DNA of 64,000 nucleotides from Actinomyces sp. zg-332 (GTDB lineage Bacteria > Actinomycetota > Actinomycetes > Actinomycetales > Actinomycetaceae): positions 124,001 through 188,000 of the forward strand of contig NZ_CP064951.1 of the NCBI RefSeq assembly GCF_011751945.2, read 5' to 3'. The notes beneath the pieces were generated by a model. That model was not told the origin of the DNA, searched no databases, and was given only the letters and a program-made list of their open reading frames with translations. Position numbers and translations under genes: made by a program. Every line of letters begins with the position of its first letter. The first letter of the stretch is position 1. Positions 1,385 through 64,000 of the stretch are shown here, piece after piece.

Positions 1385-3559
1385 ATGTACGGGTCTTGGC
1401 TAGGTTTTGCTTTTGCTTTTATAATTTCTGGTATTTTGTTGTATTTTCCGGGTTACTTGATGAGCAGGGCAATAGGTATTCGTGGGTTTTTAGCTGTTTC
1501 TGTTGCTCCACTTATTAGCATTGGGTTTGTTTCAACTTTGGCTGTTTTGCTGGGTGCTTTACGTATTAAATGGAGCGTGTGGATTTTATTTGCCTGTATT
1601 TTCCTGACTTGCTTTTTGTTATTCATAATAAATGGGGGGGGGATTTATAATCGAGCTTTAATATTTTTTAAGGCAAAATTTTACCCGAAAACTTACGCAA
1701 ATAGTTACGAGATAATTCCTAGTCGAGTGGGTAAAACTAGCAGAGTAGTTATTTCTTGGTGTGGGTTGTTTGTGCCTTTGTGTGTTGGTTTGGTTGCTGG
1801 TTTTGTTTTGTTTGTGCGTGTTTTGTTGGCTTTGAGGGTTCCTTTTGCTTTTAGTCAGAGTTCTGATGGGCATTATCATTATAATAGTGTTGCTAGTATG
1901 CTTGAGAGTGGGGATTTGTCTTCTTTGCATATGTTGCAGCTTCCTCCTAATTCTAGTTTTTATCCTGCTGCTTGGCATGATTTTGTTACTAGTGTTATTC
2001 ATGTTACGGGTGTTAGTATTCCTGTTGCTGCTAATGCTTTTACTTATTTTTTGCTTTGTTTTGTGTGGCCTTTGTCTATGCTTACTTTTGCTTTATGTAT
2101 CAGCAAAAACAAAGTATTCCTAAGCGTAGTAGCTGGTACTAGTACTCTGATTTCATTTTTCCCAGGTATTTATTTAACCTTCGGCATTCTTTACGCAAAT
2201 ATTACAGCTGCTGTTGTATTACCAGTAGTTTTCATGATTGTAGTGTCTTTCTTATTCAGACAACGTTTCTTTGGATTTTGGCAAGTAGTATTTTTGGGTG
2301 TAACTTCTTTGCTAGCCTTAGCTTTCGCTCAATCTAGTGGAATATTTACTGTCTACTATGTCGTCCTTATTGTTCTGCCTTTTGCTGGATATAAGTTAGG
2401 TAAAGAATTTGACGTTTATAATCTCGGTTTTAAAGACTTTATATTTGGTGTTTCAAAAACGAAAACTCTAAATGATAGTGGCAGTGCTGGTGAAATCGAA
2501 AGCCATTCTTATAAATATAGAATAATTTTTACAGCCTTAGCGTTTTTAGTATTGTTTGCAATTATTGCTGCTGTTACATACATTTCTTTAACAAATCCAT
2601 CCATATATAACGCTCGATTTACTTCTAATATAGTAATACCGACAAGATATGGTAGAAAAGAAGCTTTATTAGCATTTTTGACTACAGGTCAGAGGTTTTT
2701 AACAGTACCTGGAGATCAAGTATTTTATGAGAACATATATGTGTCGGTTTTGTGTTTTATTGGCTTAGGTGTAATTTTACGCAGACATTTTAAAACTAAC
2801 TATTTGTGGATAATTGTTGCGTGGATATGGTTCTCATTCTTGAACTTTATTGCTGCAAGCTGGCCAGATAATAGGCTCCGTGCCTTTTTGACTGGTATTT
2901 ATTATGGTGAACCTATACGTTTGATATCAATACAAGTAATTTTCATGGTGATAATTATAGCTTTAGCTGTAATGTTTATGCTTTCAAAGTTAAAGTTGCT
3001 TGCTTATGATAGTGGAAAATATGGTTTTAAGATATTTGGTGCTATTACGTTAGTTCTTTTGTTTATTGTAGCCCAAGTAATACCTGCGTATTCATATAGA
3101 TTTGTTGCTCAAAATATAAGTTTTTCTTTGCCTGAATCTAATCTAAATAATGAGTTAGTATATTCGAAATCTGAAGTTGACTTTATGCAATCCAATACGG
3201 ATAAAATCGATAAATCTTATAATGTTATAGGCAATCCTTTCAAAGGAACTACTGCTTCTTGGTTCCTGTTTGGGCAAAGAAACGTAATGTACCATATTCA
3301 GCACCCAAGAGACGAGTATAGGCAAATATTGTCTAATAACCTTGAGGAAATTAATACGAATCCTAAGGTCTGTAAAGCTATTAAGAAGTATAAAGTACGT
3401 TACGTTTATTCTTTTGTTGGAAAGTGTCAGTGGGGTAGGGATTGCGATAGAGAATATCCTAGCTTTGATAATCTTGATAACAAACCATTCGCTAAGTTAA
3501 TCAATAAAGATAAATATGGTAATAAACTTTTTGAAATCAATGGATGTGATAATCACTAA
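1385..3559 (+). CDS. Polytopic membrane protein, DUF6541-like (copy A), probable GT-C-type transferase
   Basis: 724 aa with many hydrophobic segments through about residue 580 and a soluble C-terminal part ending in a Cys-containing domain (KVCKAIKKYKVRYVYS...). It resembles actinobacterial DUF6541 proteins: an extracytoplasmic segment with SDGHYHYNSVASMLESGD and FYPAAWHDF after the first membrane helices. Acidic residues in the first outer loop are what GT-C glycosyltransferases use, so a role in transferring a lipid-linked sugar to a surface polymer is inferred, not shown. ATG at 1385 follows AAAGGG. The coding sequence contains nine Gs in a row at 1634-1642 (Asn-Gly-Gly-Gly-Ile), so slippage would shift the frame about 86 codons in. 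Bases 1874-2126 are identical to the next gene. The surrounding sequence is much more diverged. Confidence 0.8.
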   Translation: MYGSWLGFAFAFIISGILLYFPGYLMSRAIGIRGFLAVSVAPLISIGFVSTLAVLLGALRIKWSVWILFACIFLTCFLLFIINGGGIYNRALIFFKAKFYPKTYANSYEIIPSRVGKTSRVVISWCGLFVPLCVGLVAGFVLFVRVLLALRVPFAFSQSSDGHYHYNSVASMLESGDLSSLHMLQLPPNSSFYPAAWHDFVTSVIHVTGVSIPVAANAFTYFLLCFVWPLSMLTFALCISKNKVFLSVVAGTSTLISFFPGIYLTFGILYANITAAVVLPVVFMIVVSFLFRQRFFGFWQVVFLGVTSLLALAFAQSSGIFTVYYVVLIVLPFAGYKLGKEFDVYNLGFKDFIFGVSKTKTLNDSGSAGEIESHSYKYRIIFTALAFLVLFAIIAAVTYISLTNPSIYNARFTSNIVIPTRYGRKEALLAFLTTGQRFLTVPGDQVFYENIYVSVLCFIGLGVILRRHFKTNYLWIIVAWIWFSFLNFIAASWPDNRLRAFLTGIYYGEPIRLISIQVIFMVIIIALAVMFMLSKLKLLAYDSGKYGFKIFGAITLVLLFIVAQVIPAYSYRFVAQNISFSLPESNLNNELVYSKSEVDFMQSNTDKIDKSYNVIGNPFKGTTASWFLFGQRNVMYHIQHPRDEYRQILSNNLEEINTNPKVCKAIKKYKVRYVYSFVGKCQWGRDCDREYPSFDNLDNKPFAKLINKDKYGNKLFEINGCDNH
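1634..1642 (+). repeat. G9 homopolymer inside copy A (possible phase-variation tract)
   Basis: Nine consecutive Gs encode three glycines in frame, at residues 84-86. In an AT-rich genome such tracts are rare. Gain or loss of one base would truncate the protein. Length as seen keeps the frame open. Confidence 0.85.
1874..2126 (+). repeat. 253-bp perfect repeat, copy 1
   Basis: Identical base for base to 4068-4320 (offset 2194). Identity stops abruptly on both sides: the base before TATCATTATAATAG differs, and after TAAGCG the copies read TAGTAG and CGGTTG. The block encodes the YHYNSVASMLESGDLSS...ISKNKVFLS part of both membrane proteins. Best explained by recent gene conversion. Confidence 0.97.
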
Positions 3560-3662
3560 AGTTTTAATTTGAAATATAGCTTTTATTAGTACTCTTCTTT
3601 ATCGTATACAGATAGTTTCTGATAAGATACTTTTAATTTGTAGATAAATATTGAGGGGAAAA

Positions 3663-5660
3663 ATGCACGGAACTTGGTCTGATTTCACTTTTGCTTTGAT
3701 AATTTGTGGTATTTTAGTTTATTTACCGGGCTTTATTCTTGCACGTGCTTTGAATATTCGTGGATTCCTCTCTATAGGTGTTGCTCCTATTATTAGCATA
3801 TCTTTAATATCTACTACAGCTGTAATGTTTGGTTCCATAGGAATTCCATGGACAATAGTTGGCTTATTTATAGTATTTGTACTTGTCACCGTTTTTGCTT
3901 TAATCATAAGAGTTTTATTCAATTACGATGAAAAAATAAAAGTAGTTAGGTATAGAGAAACTTTTATACCTACTGTAATAGCCCTACTTACTGGTGGCGT
4001 ATTCTTTGCAAGAGTTTTGTATTCTTTGAAAGTTCCTTATGCCATAAGTCAGACTTATGATGCAAACTATCATTATAATAGTGTTGCTAGTATGCTTGAG
4101 AGTGGGGATTTGTCTTCTTTGCATATGTTGCAGCTTCCTCCTAATTCTAGTTTTTATCCTGCTGCTTGGCATGATTTTGTTACTAGTGTTATTCATGTTA
4201 CGGGTGTTAGTATTCCTGTTGCTGCTAATGCTTTTACTTATTTTTTGCTTTGTTTTGTGTGGCCTTTGTCTATGCTTACTTTTGCTTTATGTATCAGCAA
4301 AAACAAAGTATTCCTAAGCGCGGTTGCAACAGTTAGCACTTTAATAGCTTTCTTCCCAGGCGTTTACTTATGGTTTGGTATGTTATATGCCAATGTTGTG
4401 GCTTCATCTTTCTTGCCTGCTGTTTTGATGGTAGTTGTGGCATTCTTGTTTAGACAAAATTATTTCCAGTGGTGGCAGAGCATTATACTGGGAATTGCTT
4501 CTTTCTTAGGGCTAGTTTTCTCTCAACCTAATGGTATTTTTACTGTTTACTATGTTGTACTTATTGTTTTGCCTTTTGCTGCTTATTACTTTGGTAAAGA
4601 TTTGGATAAAGGTAAATCCAAGAAAAATCGAATTCTTTTTGTTTTACTAGCGATAGTTGCTGATATTGCTTTAGAAATAGTAGTTGGTATTTTGTCATAC
4701 AACATAAAGACACTATATAATCTTCGCTTTGACTACAATGTTATTATTGGGGCACCTCATGGTTATAAGAGCGGTATTCTAGCTTTCTTGACTGCTAGAT
4801 TTGAAGGTTATGAAGGTAGCTTGTTACCTTATCTGGATAATTTACCTATAGCTGTCTTGGTGTTTCTCGGTCTTTTCTTAGTGCTTAGAAATTACAAAAA
4901 ATCCTCATGGTTAATACTGGCTTATTTGTGGTTCTCTTTCATAAATTTTGTAGCAGGTTCTTTGCCTACTTCTTTGTTCAGAACACTTATAAGTGGTGTG
5001 TATTACTCTGAAAAAATGCGTTTAATTTCTATACAAGCAATATTTATGGTGATTTTTGTCGCTATATCTGTGCTGTTTATTTTTGAGAAAATCAAAGCTG
5101 TAAAGAAAAATTCACAAGGAGAATATAGCTTTAAGCTCGTTACTATTGCTGGGTTAGTGTTAGTTTTTGTTGCTGGTAATTTTGTTCCGTATTATGCAAG
5201 TCAATTTGAAGCTACTGAAGGTGCTTTTAGCTTGCCGAAAGATAATACGAAGTTAGGTTACGAGTACTCTAAAGAAGAAATTGATTTTATGGCAAGAACT
5301 ATTAAATCTTTAGATAAGAACTACACGGTTACTGGTAATCCTTGGAAAGGTGCTACTGCTACTTGGTATTTATTTGGACACAAGAATCCTTTATATCATG
5401 CCGCATATCCATCTGATAAAAATCAATTACTGATAATCCAAAGTCTAAATAAAGCTAACGAAAATCCTAAAGTGTGTGAAGCAGTAAAGGCTTTGAAGCT
5501 GAAATATGTTTATTCTCTCAGTGGTAAGTGTTTATGGGAACGTAATTGTGATGTAGAAGGTTATCAGGGTTTAGCAGATTTGGAAGAAAATAATGTAGCC
5601 AAATTGTTAGATCAGGATAATGCTGGTAATAAACTATATGAGATTACAGCATGCAAATAG
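3663..5660 (+). CDS. Polytopic membrane protein, DUF6541-like (copy B), probable GT-C-type transferase
   Basis: 665 aa, a paralogue of the preceding gene along its whole length: same hydrophobic pattern, same FYPAAWHDF motif, same soluble C-terminal domain (NPKVCEAVKALKLKYVYSLSGKC). Outside the shared block the proteins have clearly diverged, for example VPYAISQTYDAN against VPFAFSQSSDGH. I place the start at ATG 3663 because TTG 3651 overlaps the ribosome-binding sequence GAGGGG at 3653-3658. The gene lacks a G9 tract. It follows copy A by about 100 bp and may share its transcript. Activity and substrate are unknown; a tandem pair with an identical exposed segment fits a pair of surface-polymer enzymes exchanging sequence. 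Confidence 0.8.
   Translation: MHGTWSDFTFALIICGILVYLPGFILARALNIRGFLSIGVAPIISISLISTTAVMFGSIGIPWTIVGLFIVFVLVTVFALIIRVLFNYDEKIKVVRYRETFIPTVIALLTGGVFFARVLYSLKVPYAISQTYDANYHYNSVASMLESGDLSSLHMLQLPPNSSFYPAAWHDFVTSVIHVTGVSIPVAANAFTYFLLCFVWPLSMLTFALCISKNKVFLSAVATVSTLIAFFPGVYLWFGMLYANVVASSFLPAVLMVVVAFLFRQNYFQWWQSIILGIASFLGLVFSQPNGIFTVYYVVLIVLPFAAYYFGKDLDKGKSKKNRILFVLLAIVADIALEIVVGILSYNIKTLYNLRFDYNVIIGAPHGYKSGILAFLTARFEGYEGSLLPYLDNLPIAVLVFLGLFLVLRNYKKSSWLILAYLWFSFINFVAGSLPTSLFRTLISGVYYSEKMRLISIQAIFMVIFVAISVLFIFEKIKAVKKNSQGEYSFKLVTIAGLVLVFVAGNFVPYYASQFEATEGAFSLPKDNTKLGYEYSKEEIDFMARTIKSLDKNYTVTGNPWKGATATWYLFGHKNPLYHAAYPSDKNQLLIIQSLNKANENPKVCEAVKALKLKYVYSLSGKCLWERNCDVEGYQGLADLEENNVAKLLDQDNAGNKLYEITACK
4068..4320 (+). 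repeat. 253-bp perfect repeat, copy 2
   Basis: Second copy of the block at 1874-2126, in the same orientation and the same reading frame of the paralogous gene. In this gene its codon style (many TTG, GTT, GCT and TCT codons) contrasts with the A-richer flanks (GCA, ATA, TTA), so the block looks imported here. Confidence 0.97.
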
Positions 5661-61159: not shown

Positions 61160-64000
61160 TTGAGTAAGTACGCAGTACGTAAGGCTATAAGCATTTTTGT
61201 GCTTTTGTCTTTTATTATTGTTACTTTCGGAAATTCAATATCTCCAGCATATGGTGATAGTGGTTTACGTGGTGATTTGCAGGTTATAAACCTCGAACCA
61301 AATGACACGATTAATCATGAAACTGATTATTGGCCTGATAGAACCATAAATGCAGCTGGTGACGTTTCTATTTCCGGTGCTGGTTCAAAACTAGTAAATC
61401 CTTGGATTGTTATTACTGTACCGAAGAGTAATAAAATTTCAAAGCCTGGATATGTAGATTCACAGAACGCTATTTATAACAGGTTAGTTGAAGAAGATCC
61501 TGATAACTATTATTTGGTTTATAAGTTTAAAGAAATTAGTGGTGGTTTTAGGGCAACCTTTAGAGCGCCGTTTAAATTCTTAGATAATCAAAATACGCAT
61601 AATGGCGATACAATTAAGGTTAAAGTTGATGTTCGCCAAGGTGATGATAGTAACGATTTTAAAGATAAGCCTATTCTTTATTCAGCTGAAAAGACCTATA
61701 AACTATTAAAACAAGAGTTTGAATACAACGAAACGCTTCTTGCTGCACGTGATGGTCAATGGGATGAACCAAATGCTCGTAAAGTTTATTCGATGAATGT
61801 TACTCCTAATCAAACAAATACAGGAGATCCAGGATATGTAGTTAGCCTTTATGGTTCACACTTGTACGATCTACCTAAAGACTTTAACGGTAATCCATCA
61901 TATGTTATCCCTAGCAATATAAAAATTATTTACACTTTACCTGAAGGTGTAGAACCAAATGGTAATCTTGGCTCATACAAATGGGATGAATCTACTAGAA
62001 CCTTAACGAATCTTGTAGAAAACCCTTCAAGGCAGGGACCTGACTGGCCTCGTAGTTGGAAAAATGGTTACACTCATTGGTTGAGTGTTCGTATGGTTAA
62101 TAAACCATTTGATGAAACACAAACTGTTACTGCTCGTTATATTGTTGATGCAGGTTTGCCAACTGAAAGAGAACTTACTCCGCGTGAAGTTAAGTTTGCT
62201 GTAAGAGCGAATTACTTTTCTCCAGGTGGTGGATTTGAGGCTTGGAAAGATAATTTAAATGGTGGCGGTTCATACCCTATAAATTATGATATAAGTGAAG
62301 GTAATTACTCTATTACGGGTGATACTATATCGGATAGACGATATGATCAAACTGAAAATGGTTTATACTACCGTGTATATATGCGTGCAAATAATAATGG
62401 TTCAGCCTTTGATAACCCCGAAAATGGTAAAGTAACTGCCCTTTATAAGATTGAAGATATTCGATCAAGTCTTGATAATGATAAGAGAACTAGTTACAAG
62501 TCATTCCAGTTTAAAGGAATAAATGGACATGGAAATATAAATTCTTTCTCAGAAGAGAGAAGAACGCAAATTCAACAAGAACTAGTTGATTCCATCAATA
62601 ATACTCCTAACGTTTTGTATGGTGTTAAAGATGATGGAACAAAGGTAGAACTTGCTAAAAATGTTCAACTGGAACAGAAAATAGATATTAATGATCCTAA
62701 AGCTGAATATGCAAAACTACTTCTAGAATTTAGTAAGCCTATTGTTCTCAATAACATGGTTCTCACTTATAATATTGGGTTAGCTCCTACTGCCGATGAA
62801 ATTCAAAAATTTAAAGACCATGTGTACACAGATCGACAAGAATATCGTGGTAAAGCTAATTTCTTAATTCGAACAAGTGAAACAGTTACCGATGATGAAT
62901 CGCAGGCTAAATGGCATAATACAAACGATACTTATGCATATACAAGCCTAGAACCAATTTCACCTAAAGCAGTTATAAATGGTGCTTCTTCAAATGAGCT
63001 TAGAGTGACGTATTCAAAGCAAGGTGCTACCTTTACATATTGGTCCCAAGCCCAATTGTCAACTGACTATGGTCTATGGGGTGCGATGGGTAGCCAGCCT
63101 ATTAAAAATGCTAAGTTAATACAGTTAATTCCTGAAGGTTTCAACTATGTTCGTAAACATAGTCAATATTGGTACGGTAAAAATATTGAAGAGCCTGAAG
63201 TAATAAAAAATTACAAGAATACGGGTAAAACAGCTGTAATCTATACCATCCCTGAGATGATTCCAAACAATTCTAACTTAAGGGCAATAGGGATTAGAAC
63301 AACACTTGAAGCTACTCCGTATGCTAAGCGTGGTGCAAATAATCCAATTGAAACATACTTTATGTATGATAAGAATGATATTATTACAGAATATCAATCA
63401 TGGATGAAAACTAATGACTCATTAGACATCGATAATGATGGTGACAGAGAAGAACGCGTACTTGTACACAGAGCAAATGTTAACTATGTTCCACCTTTGG
63501 AATTAATCGTTAAGAAAGAAGTTGGGTATGATACTTCTGCTTTCGGTCTATCTACCACAGGTGACTTAGGATACAACTTCTTCTATCGTGTAAATATTTT
63601 CAACAACACAATTGGTGAAGTAAATAGTGTACATGTAATTGACGTTTTACCTTATAAAGGTGACCACGCTATTGTTCCTAACGATTCTGGGCAATATTTA
63701 CAACGTAATTCTAAGTTTGCTACTCCGCTCTCTGCAAGTATTGAATCAGTACCTGAAAATGCTACTGTTTTGCAACGCTTTAACATTCTATACAAACTAG
63801 CTCCGCAAGGTGATGATTTAGCAAGCGTTACAGATGGTGGATGGGTTCCTGCTGACCAAGTTAGCGATTTTAGCCAAGTAAAGAGCTTTAAGCTAGAACT
63901 AAAGTCAGGTTCAACTATTGCTTCGAAGGAAGAAGTTAACCTTATAGTTCCAAGCAAGATTCCATATGATACTTCGTTGACTCCAGGAGAATGTGCTATA
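61160..64000 (+). CDS. Large secreted surface protein, 5' part (runs off the window)
   Basis: At least 947 codons without a stop. TTG start 61160 behind AGGGG. An N-terminal signal peptide (MSKYAVRKAISIFVLLSFII...ISPAYG) is followed by an extracellular-type sequence rich in Asn, Asp, Thr and Tyr with no cysteine until the very end. Several segments resemble beta-sandwich domains of Gram-positive adhesins: SGGFRATFRAPFKFLD, YKLLKQEFEYN, and near the end LELIVKKEVGYDTSAFGLST with YRVNIFNNTIGEVNSVHVID, like DUF11/Cna-B-type repeats. An LPxTG anchor is expected beyond the edge. Ligand and family member unknown. Confidence 0.8.
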   Translation, partial: MSKYAVRKAISIFVLLSFIIVTFGNSISPAYGDSGLRGDLQVINLEPNDTINHETDYWPDRTINAAGDVSISGAGSKLVNPWIVITVPKSNKISKPGYVDSQNAIYNRLVEEDPDNYYLVYKFKEISGGFRATFRAPFKFLDNQNTHNGDTIKVKVDVRQGDDSNDFKDKPILYSAEKTYKLLKQEFEYNETLLAARDGQWDEPNARKVYSMNVTPNQTNTGDPGYVVSLYGSHLYDLPKDFNGNPSYVIPSNIKIIYTLPEGVEPNGNLGSYKWDESTRTLTNLVENPSRQGPDWPRSWKNGYTHWLSVRMVNKPFDETQTVTARYIVDAGLPTERELTPREVKFAVRANYFSPGGGFEAWKDNLNGGGSYPINYDISEGNYSITGDTISDRRYDQTENGLYYRVYMRANNNGSAFDNPENGKVTALYKIEDIRSSLDNDKRTSYKSFQFKGINGHGNINSFSEERRTQIQQELVDSINNTPNVLYGVKDDGTKVELAKNVQLEQKIDINDPKAEYAKLLLEFSKPIVLNNMVLTYNIGLAPTADEIQKFKDHVYTDRQEYRGKANFLIRTSETVTDDESQAKWHNTNDTYAYTSLEPISPKAVINGASSNELRVTYSKQGATFTYWSQAQLSTDYGLWGAMGSQPIKNAKLIQLIPEGFNYVRKHSQYWYGKNIEEPEVIKNYKNTGKTAVIYTIPEMIPNNSNLRAIGIRTTLEATPYAKRGANNPIETYFMYDKNDIITEYQSWMKTNDSLDIDNDGDREERVLVHRANVNYVPPLELIVKKEVGYDTSAFGLSTTGDLGYNFFYRVNIFNNTIGEVNSVHVIDVLPYKGDHAIVPNDSGQYLQRNSKFATPLSASIESVPENATVLQRFNILYKLAPQGDDLASVTDGGWVPADQVSDFSQVKSFKLELKSGSTIASKEEVNLIVPSKIPYDTSLTPGECAI

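Follow-up and report, generated by a model that had tools for sequence, protein, structure and literature searches.

How do membrane-protein genes that differ over most of their length come to share a segment that is identical to the base, and why is most of that segment spelled with codons ending in G or T? These questions are raised by a 64,000-base stretch of the genome of Actinomyces sp. zg-332 (hereafter the window; C1:124001-188000, window base 1 being C1:124001), where C1 is the single contig of 1,540,829 bases that makes up the genome. Near the start of the window lie two genes for DUF6541 membrane proteins (PF20176): gene B (1385-3559, plus strand, 724 residues) and gene C (3651-5660, plus strand, 669 residues). 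The original prediction described a 253-bp block common to both, attributed to recent gene conversion or to recombination with a third copy. We find that the block is almost certainly a gene-conversion tract held identical among three neighbouring paralogues, and that its composition is extreme and very probably part of a wider pattern of homogenised DNA that is polar with respect to the replication strand.

The shared block and its codons

The two copies of the block, at 1874-2126 in gene B and at 4068-4320 in gene C (residues 140-223), both on the plus strand, are identical over all 253 bp, and the identity extends by 0 bases beyond either end. Chance is excluded. The flanks are distinct and strongly diverged, which makes a collapsed-read artefact less likely: in codon alignments of the paralogues beyond the tracts, most positions differ. 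A search of the genome at E <= 0.001 found three places only, namely both window copies (253 of 253 bp) and C1:121878-122122 (245 of 245 bp). The last of these, some 2 kb before the window begins, belongs to a further DUF6541 paralogue, gene A (C1:121449-123521). A third copy, as predicted, thus exists, supporting gene conversion that involves it. Between genes A and B the exact tract is longer, with a repeated interval of 358 bp in gene A inside a 371-bp alignment at 99% identity. Near-identity confined to a tract, diverged flanks and a donor within the same genome together form the pattern that defines a gene-conversion tract.

This identity is not a general property of homologues, which would have counted against conversion. 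With one genome representing the genus, only 1 of 16 DUF6541 clusters in related genomes contained shared exact pieces of at least 45 bp, each of about 45 bp (cluster G202). Conversion between DUF6541 genes is not general in these relatives.

The composition of the tract is as unusual as its identity. Codons ending in G or T follow one another without interruption for 115 codons in gene A, for 115 codons in gene B (1748-2092, plus strand, mostly an exact match to gene A) and for 73 codons in gene C (4068-4286, plus strand). In gene C the conserved YHYN motif marks the start of both the identity and the anomalous composition. Gene C is likely the recipient of the conversion, judging from its sequence, because its run is shorter (73 versus 115 codons) and its own upstream part is ordinary. 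The final 34 bp of the block, identical in gene B (2093-2126, plus strand) and gene C (4287-4320, plus strand), have ordinary codon composition.

Every amino acid in the tract is spelled solely by G/T-ending codons (Leu TTG 12 and CTT 4; Ala GCT 10; Pro CCT 7; Val GTT 12 and GTG 3), and lysine is absent. In the remainder of genes A, B and C, third positions are T 0.46, A 0.29, G 0.14 and C 0.11, and at the genes' own rate 115 G/T-ending codons in succession have a probability of about 10^-25. No further run of at least 20 such codons occurs in C1:64001-188000. Across the 1.172 Mb (76%) of the genome that was examined in stretches, one G5 repeat array is comparable and all other runs reach at most 41 codons.

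Several simple origins for this composition do not fit. Conservation across the DUF6541 family was rejected, given that among 115 homologous segments from 108 loci the fraction of third positions that are G or T (GT3) reaches at most 0.65, with a mean of 0.42 for those longer than 60 codons. The raised G+C of GC-biased gene conversion is absent, the tract having a G+C fraction of 0.374 and 0.380 versus 0.389 for the window. The tract also loses C as well as A, a poor fit to the adenine-only change of a diversity-generating retroelement. A functional overlapping antisense frame was considered and rejected: open antisense frames need no function, because G/T-ending codons by themselves remove antisense stops. 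Antisense frames kept open by such codons can be very long, as in the stretch L213 (1897-4599), where one runs to 901 residues, and in similar stretches.

Repeat arrays and the replication strand

Repeats in the genome were located by an exact 60-mer search. The comparable G5 array belongs to a minus-strand Peptidase_M26_C/G5 gene (C1:1092830-1097173, L157), where five perfect 234-bp G5 units carry G or T at 386 of 391 third positions. The adjoining G5 copy and the remainder of the gene are near ordinary in composition. With its M26-type metalloprotease domain and tandem G5 repeats, the gene likely encodes a surface protease of the organism. Two further arrays, of SHIRT repeats (C1:219957-221130) and of LGFP repeats (C1:537305-538244), are GT-rich on the plus strand while their genes lie on the minus strand. 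Plasmid searches with the SHIRT and G5 units returned no match.

Over the first 771 kb or so of the contig the plus strand has a positive GC skew, which is negative past about 791 kb except at 818-838 kb (+0.025); the leading strand was therefore taken as plus up to 790 kb and minus beyond. The DUF6541 and G5 loci are thus leading-coded, and the SHIRT and LGFP arrays lagging-coded. Read on the coding strand, the two lagging-coded arrays have third positions rich in A or C, with 320 of 392 inside one array versus 384 of 882 outside it, and 263 of 313 versus 440 of 784 for the other. In this genome the bias thus goes with the strand of replication, an argument against codon selection or transcription as its source.

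An amino-acid-conditioned test, in which one copy per array was compared with the codon usage of leading (530) or lagging (171) open reading frames, gave the same picture at all four loci, two leading and two lagging. The leading-strand G or T fraction at third positions was 1.00 for the DUF6541 tract (109/109; 0.589 expected, z 8.9), 0.987 for the M26/G5 unit (0.545 expected, z 8.0), 0.852 for the SHIRT unit (0.522 expected, z 6.3) and 0.879 for the LGFP unit (0.541 expected, z 7.4). Beyond the arrays, the same genes scored -1.8 (G5, upstream part), -3.5 (SHIRT) and +3.1 (LGFP). For comparison, scores of 3113 other 80-codon windows had a standard deviation of 1.59 and peaked at 6.4; of the 14 highest-scoring windows, 12 fell within four repeat-rich surface-type open reading frames. 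We consider it very probable that, in this family of bacteria, DNA undergoing repeated homogenisation between copies is subject to a real drive towards leading-strand G or T.

The shift does not stop at silent sites. Codon positions 1 and 2 move in the same direction as the third, position 2 most clearly: its coding-strand G or T fraction reaches 0.61 and 0.55 in the two leading tracts, compared with 0.46 for the genome, and drops to 0.28 and 0.39 in the two lagging ones, where the genome value is 0.45. Where a G5 array unit differs from the adjoining unit, 71 differences have G or T in the array and A or C in the neighbour, and 14 the reverse. The array units score 39-41 bits against the G5 family profile versus 50 for the ordinary adjoining unit, and the shift therefore seems to erode the protein sequence.

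Other repeat-like stretches of the genome were seen alongside these arrays. A large gene at 61160-64000, continuing to C1:191828, has repeats like VMKKAPVVLTKTDVDSG and holds the highest GT3 score outside the main arrays (z 6.4); in the plasmid search its unit matched SpaA isopeptide-forming pilin-related proteins. At C1:1345919-1346075 (L137) a short unit (GACAAGCA) is repeated many times, with a leading-strand G or T fraction of 0.75. Two near-identical copies of about 6 kb (L120, C1:191942-197833, and L122, C1:326553-332413) are putative ribosomal RNA operons, by length and composition only. Their putative leader and spacer stretches are extremely GT-rich, perhaps through the same drive or through RNA constraint, and were left out as evidence because RNA constraint would confound them. 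The stretch C1:609675-609974 (GT3 score 32.7) looks like a low-complexity off-frame reading and was set aside.

We then compared Rib and other surface-type arrays from genomes labelled as the same family, counting each repeat unit once. The set comprised 13 arrays drawn from 11 related genomes; GT3 was raised in 12 of the 13, each at an uncorrected two-sided p < 0.05. The raised values were 0.990, 0.915 and 0.829 for three arrays of G093, 0.776 (G161), 0.734 (G196), 0.761 (G141), 0.698 (G061), 0.872 (G091), 0.756 (G134), 0.793 (G067), 0.760 (G001) and 0.790 (G066), where 0.546-0.655 was expected. One further 18-bp repeat of six codons was set aside. In most of these arrays third-position A falls to 0-0.07 while C is still 0.13-0.30. 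Orientation was judged from local skew, and the context is leading-coded for 11 of the 13 arrays, including that of G118, the one array that is not raised. In three relatives, G5 arrays whose units have diverged and are not homogenised have a GT3 of 0.525-0.565. Among small loci, for which the open reading frame was chosen by match strand, L251 is raised (0.70 vs 0.445). L238 and L240 were dropped, as runs of N had been counted as repeats, and the stretches L276, L277, L278, L285, L287 and L212 contained no exact 60-mer repeats.

Plasmid arrays from Bacillota served as controls. Nine of ten plasmid regions were analysed (L317 was left out) and five held exact repeats: three from L. paracasei, one from L. 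gasseri and one from Aerococcus. This is a small set, in which two of the three L. paracasei plasmids are alike. None of the five was raised beyond chance (0.581, 0.592, 0.516, 0.445 and 0.364 versus 0.582, 0.577, 0.570, 0.553 and 0.504 expected), and the L. gasseri array lay below expectation (p 0.02).

Mismatch repair and competing explanations

What could push recombining copies in one direction on one strand? The genome encodes NucS (C1:518028-518384, 135.8 bits vs a cut-off of 24) and has no match to MutS_V (PF00488) at E <= 0.001, a profile matched by 11 of 14 control genomes. NucS is present in all 12 genomes searched. According to a study in M. smegmatis, NucS-dependent removal is limited to dG-dG, dG-dT and dT-dT mismatches, oligonucleotide annealing prefers the lagging-strand template, and NucS activity requires the replisome beta clamp (PMC11551744). 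NucS is further described as blocking recombination between non-identical but not between identical sequences (PMC5290159).

We propose that the paralogues undergo gene conversion in which mismatch processing is strand-polar and biased towards G/T. On the leading strand, let K stand for G or T and M for A or C. Heteroduplex between copies would form mostly at the single-stranded lagging-strand template, which has leading-strand sequence. A leading-sense strand from a K allele paired with the complement from an M allele would yield solely G.T, T.G, G.G and T.T, and the reciprocal heteroduplex (leading-sense M, complement from K) solely A.C, C.A, A.A and C.C. Where the template strand carries K, NucS would attack the mismatch and the incoming base would be lost; where it carries M, NucS would ignore the mismatch and half of the progeny would become G or T. 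With K defended and M not, every round would therefore be one-way, from A/C to G/T, and with the lagging template as receiver the observed sign of the bias would be predicted.

The mismatch classes that NucS attacks and ignores are the class split that a G/T drive requires. We lean towards the whole explanation, which joins conversion, a leading-strand G/T drive and processing by NucS. The attribution of the drive to NucS itself is a tentative inference. Slightly more tentative is a general ratchet: where bacteria rely on NucS in place of MutS/MutL, every sequence that has a partner to recombine with may be driven one-way to leading-strand G/T, overriding codon choice and eroding protein, so that G/T saturation would record the place and strand of conversion.

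A number of observations count against this explanation. The G118 array is not raised despite the presence of NucS (37 of 79 codons, 0.468, vs 0.462). Local skew is weak for the arrays of G093 and G066, and in G134 and G067 the raised genes oppose the skew of the nearby stretch and may be lagging-coded counterexamples. Among the small loci, L255 and L265 are shifted hardly or not at all, and L239, with no countable open reading frame, slightly (0.618 vs 0.538). Nor is GT3 raised in the exact pieces of about 45 bp from the G202 DUF6541 cluster (0.44 vs 0.473 over 25 codons). In the genome under study, some short or interrupted repeats are not GT-rich (for example C1:250947-253604, 0.45-0.56), the LGFP gene has a mild rise beyond its array as well, and the part examined was 76%. 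The Bacillota hosts of the control arrays, moreover, are taken by us to use MutS/MutL. Knowledge of the lagging-strand preference comes from experiments with added oligonucleotides and does not extend to conversion in nature. Lastly, T>C enrichment is seen in a preprint on paralogues of M. tuberculosis, which suggests that NucS-mediated repair is reduced in recombination (PMC13061034).

Strand-specific damage survives best among the alternatives, although we consider it unlikely. Repeats may spend longer single-stranded on the lagging template, through slippage or recombination, so that deamination of C to T and of A to G accumulates. Such damage would likewise track the replication strand, its direction fits the ordinary leading-strand skew, and the lagging-coded arrays depart less from a transitions-only expectation (SHIRT, 23 purines of 33 vs 15.0; LGFP, 25 of 44 vs 20.0). 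At four-fold sites, however, a transitions-only model predicts 22.8 purines in the DUF6541 tract, which has G at 7 of 55, and 21.1 in the G5 array, which has 4 purines of 51. These changes go beyond transitions, which argues against plain deamination. The near loss of third-position A with retention of C in most arrays of the relatives is the opposite of cytosine-led deamination, and the bias is missing from the Bacillota arrays.

We regard it as distinctly improbable that the tract is a foreign cassette of G/T-ending codons, spread to its neighbours by ordinary recent conversion and with a composition unrelated to recombination. The sharp edges and the single cassette common to three genes would suit such an origin, as would the fact that across 524 kb no ordinary-looking gene reaches the tract composition (maximum 0.727). 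A donor is absent, however, from everything searched: the block DNA had no match in plasmids and phages or in 38 related genomes, and the block protein none in viral contigs. In five genomes reached through loci the best block match was 28 bp (E 0.0034). The low GT3 of the homologous DUF6541 segments also argues against it, and the same signature in unrelated repeat families, in this genome and in relatives, would have to be a coincidence.

A preference of the recombinase for G/T-rich leading-strand DNA, under which such sequences become and stay homogenised repeats through selection on recombination ability, earns equally little credence from us. GT-rich sequences are preferred pairing sites of RecA. 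GT-rich DNA may therefore itself recombine better, and cause and effect may be partly reversed, which weakens our own proposal as well. Against a recombinase preference, a single-copy sequence would presumably first have to reach a GT3 of 100% by chance, homologous adjoining copies have ordinary composition, and the Bacillota arrays remain identical without the bias. Codon or protein selection in surface proteins, which most of the other cases appear to be, is very improbable: the DUF6541 genes encode membrane enzymes, the lagging-coded arrays show the reverse codon choice, and outside their repeats the same genes have a nearly ordinary composition.

The affected enzyme and known systems

The original prediction also held that the block affects the active part of a surface-polymer enzyme pair. 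For the active part the support is indirect, and the surface-polymer role is hypothetical. The window genes match the DUF6541 profile at 345 and 391 bits (cut-off 29), and the genome has four matches in three genes. The structural model of the gene C product (pLDDT 87, pTM 0.91) is best matched by a yeast oligosaccharyltransferase chain (Z 21.9, 472 residues, root-mean-square deviation 5.3), with PglB, ArnT, AftD, AftA and protein mannosyltransferases also among the matches listed, all of which we take to be GT-C enzymes; Foldseek gave E values down to 1.3e-6. The product is thus likely a membrane glycosyltransferase, with a predicted GT-C fold. Five of the twelve columns that are invariant among 42 aligned sequences lie inside the block (H141, Y169, P170, W173 and H174). 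GT-C enzymes carry an acidic residue in the first external loop; D137 and H141, both invariant in the alignment, stand at the start of model helix 136-151. Elsewhere in the window, upstream of gene B, an open reading frame at 229-1161 fuses a SpoU-family RNA methyltransferase domain behind a winged helix-turn-helix domain, which to our knowledge is not a usual arrangement.

If the proposed drive is true, it would be a second form of biased gene conversion, strand-polar, acting on a G+T axis and explained by a specific enzyme. Sequence alone would then reveal hot spots of conversion and the polarity of replication, the odd codon usage of actinobacterial repeat-rich surface proteins would be explained, and the repeats would show a cost of NucS-type repair while offering an in vivo test of NucS strand choice. 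The causes of the long open antisense frames and of the shifted amino acids in such repeats would be non-adaptive, and the antisense frames could mislead gene callers in repeat-rich genomes.

Literature searches on NucS with gene conversion, and on keto skew with repeats, gave no G/T drive of repeats in titles or abstracts among the matches listed; those on DUF6541 and on third-codon composition in Tropheryma found nothing. The locus nevertheless has counterparts in several known systems. As in conversion and concerted evolution of bacterial paralogues, an identical, sharp-edged tract lies in several copies within diverged genes, but here the tract is G/T-saturated at silent sites of the leading strand. 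In Tropheryma whipplei, the WiSP surface genes contain nearly identical WND repeats (99% over 784 bp in two genes) that are thought to recombine (PMC2078596); the likeness considered here is one of repeat identity. GC-biased gene conversion likewise changes composition through mismatch processing in conversion, although the axis there is G+C and here G+T versus A+C on one strand.

The NucS/EndoMS system of M. smegmatis shares with our proposal the handled and ignored mismatch classes, which match the two heteroduplex classes, and the limitation of homeologous recombination (PMC11551744, PMC5290159); the long-term composition drive on repeats that we infer is not mentioned in the passages considered from those papers. 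The nearest prior work, among the matches listed, is the M. tuberculosis paralogue preprint (PMC13061034). There, T>C enrichment is reported, and the passages considered mention neither replication-strand polarity nor G/T saturation; in common with our reading, it proposes that a recombination-linked asymmetry of repair could reshape the composition of paralogues.

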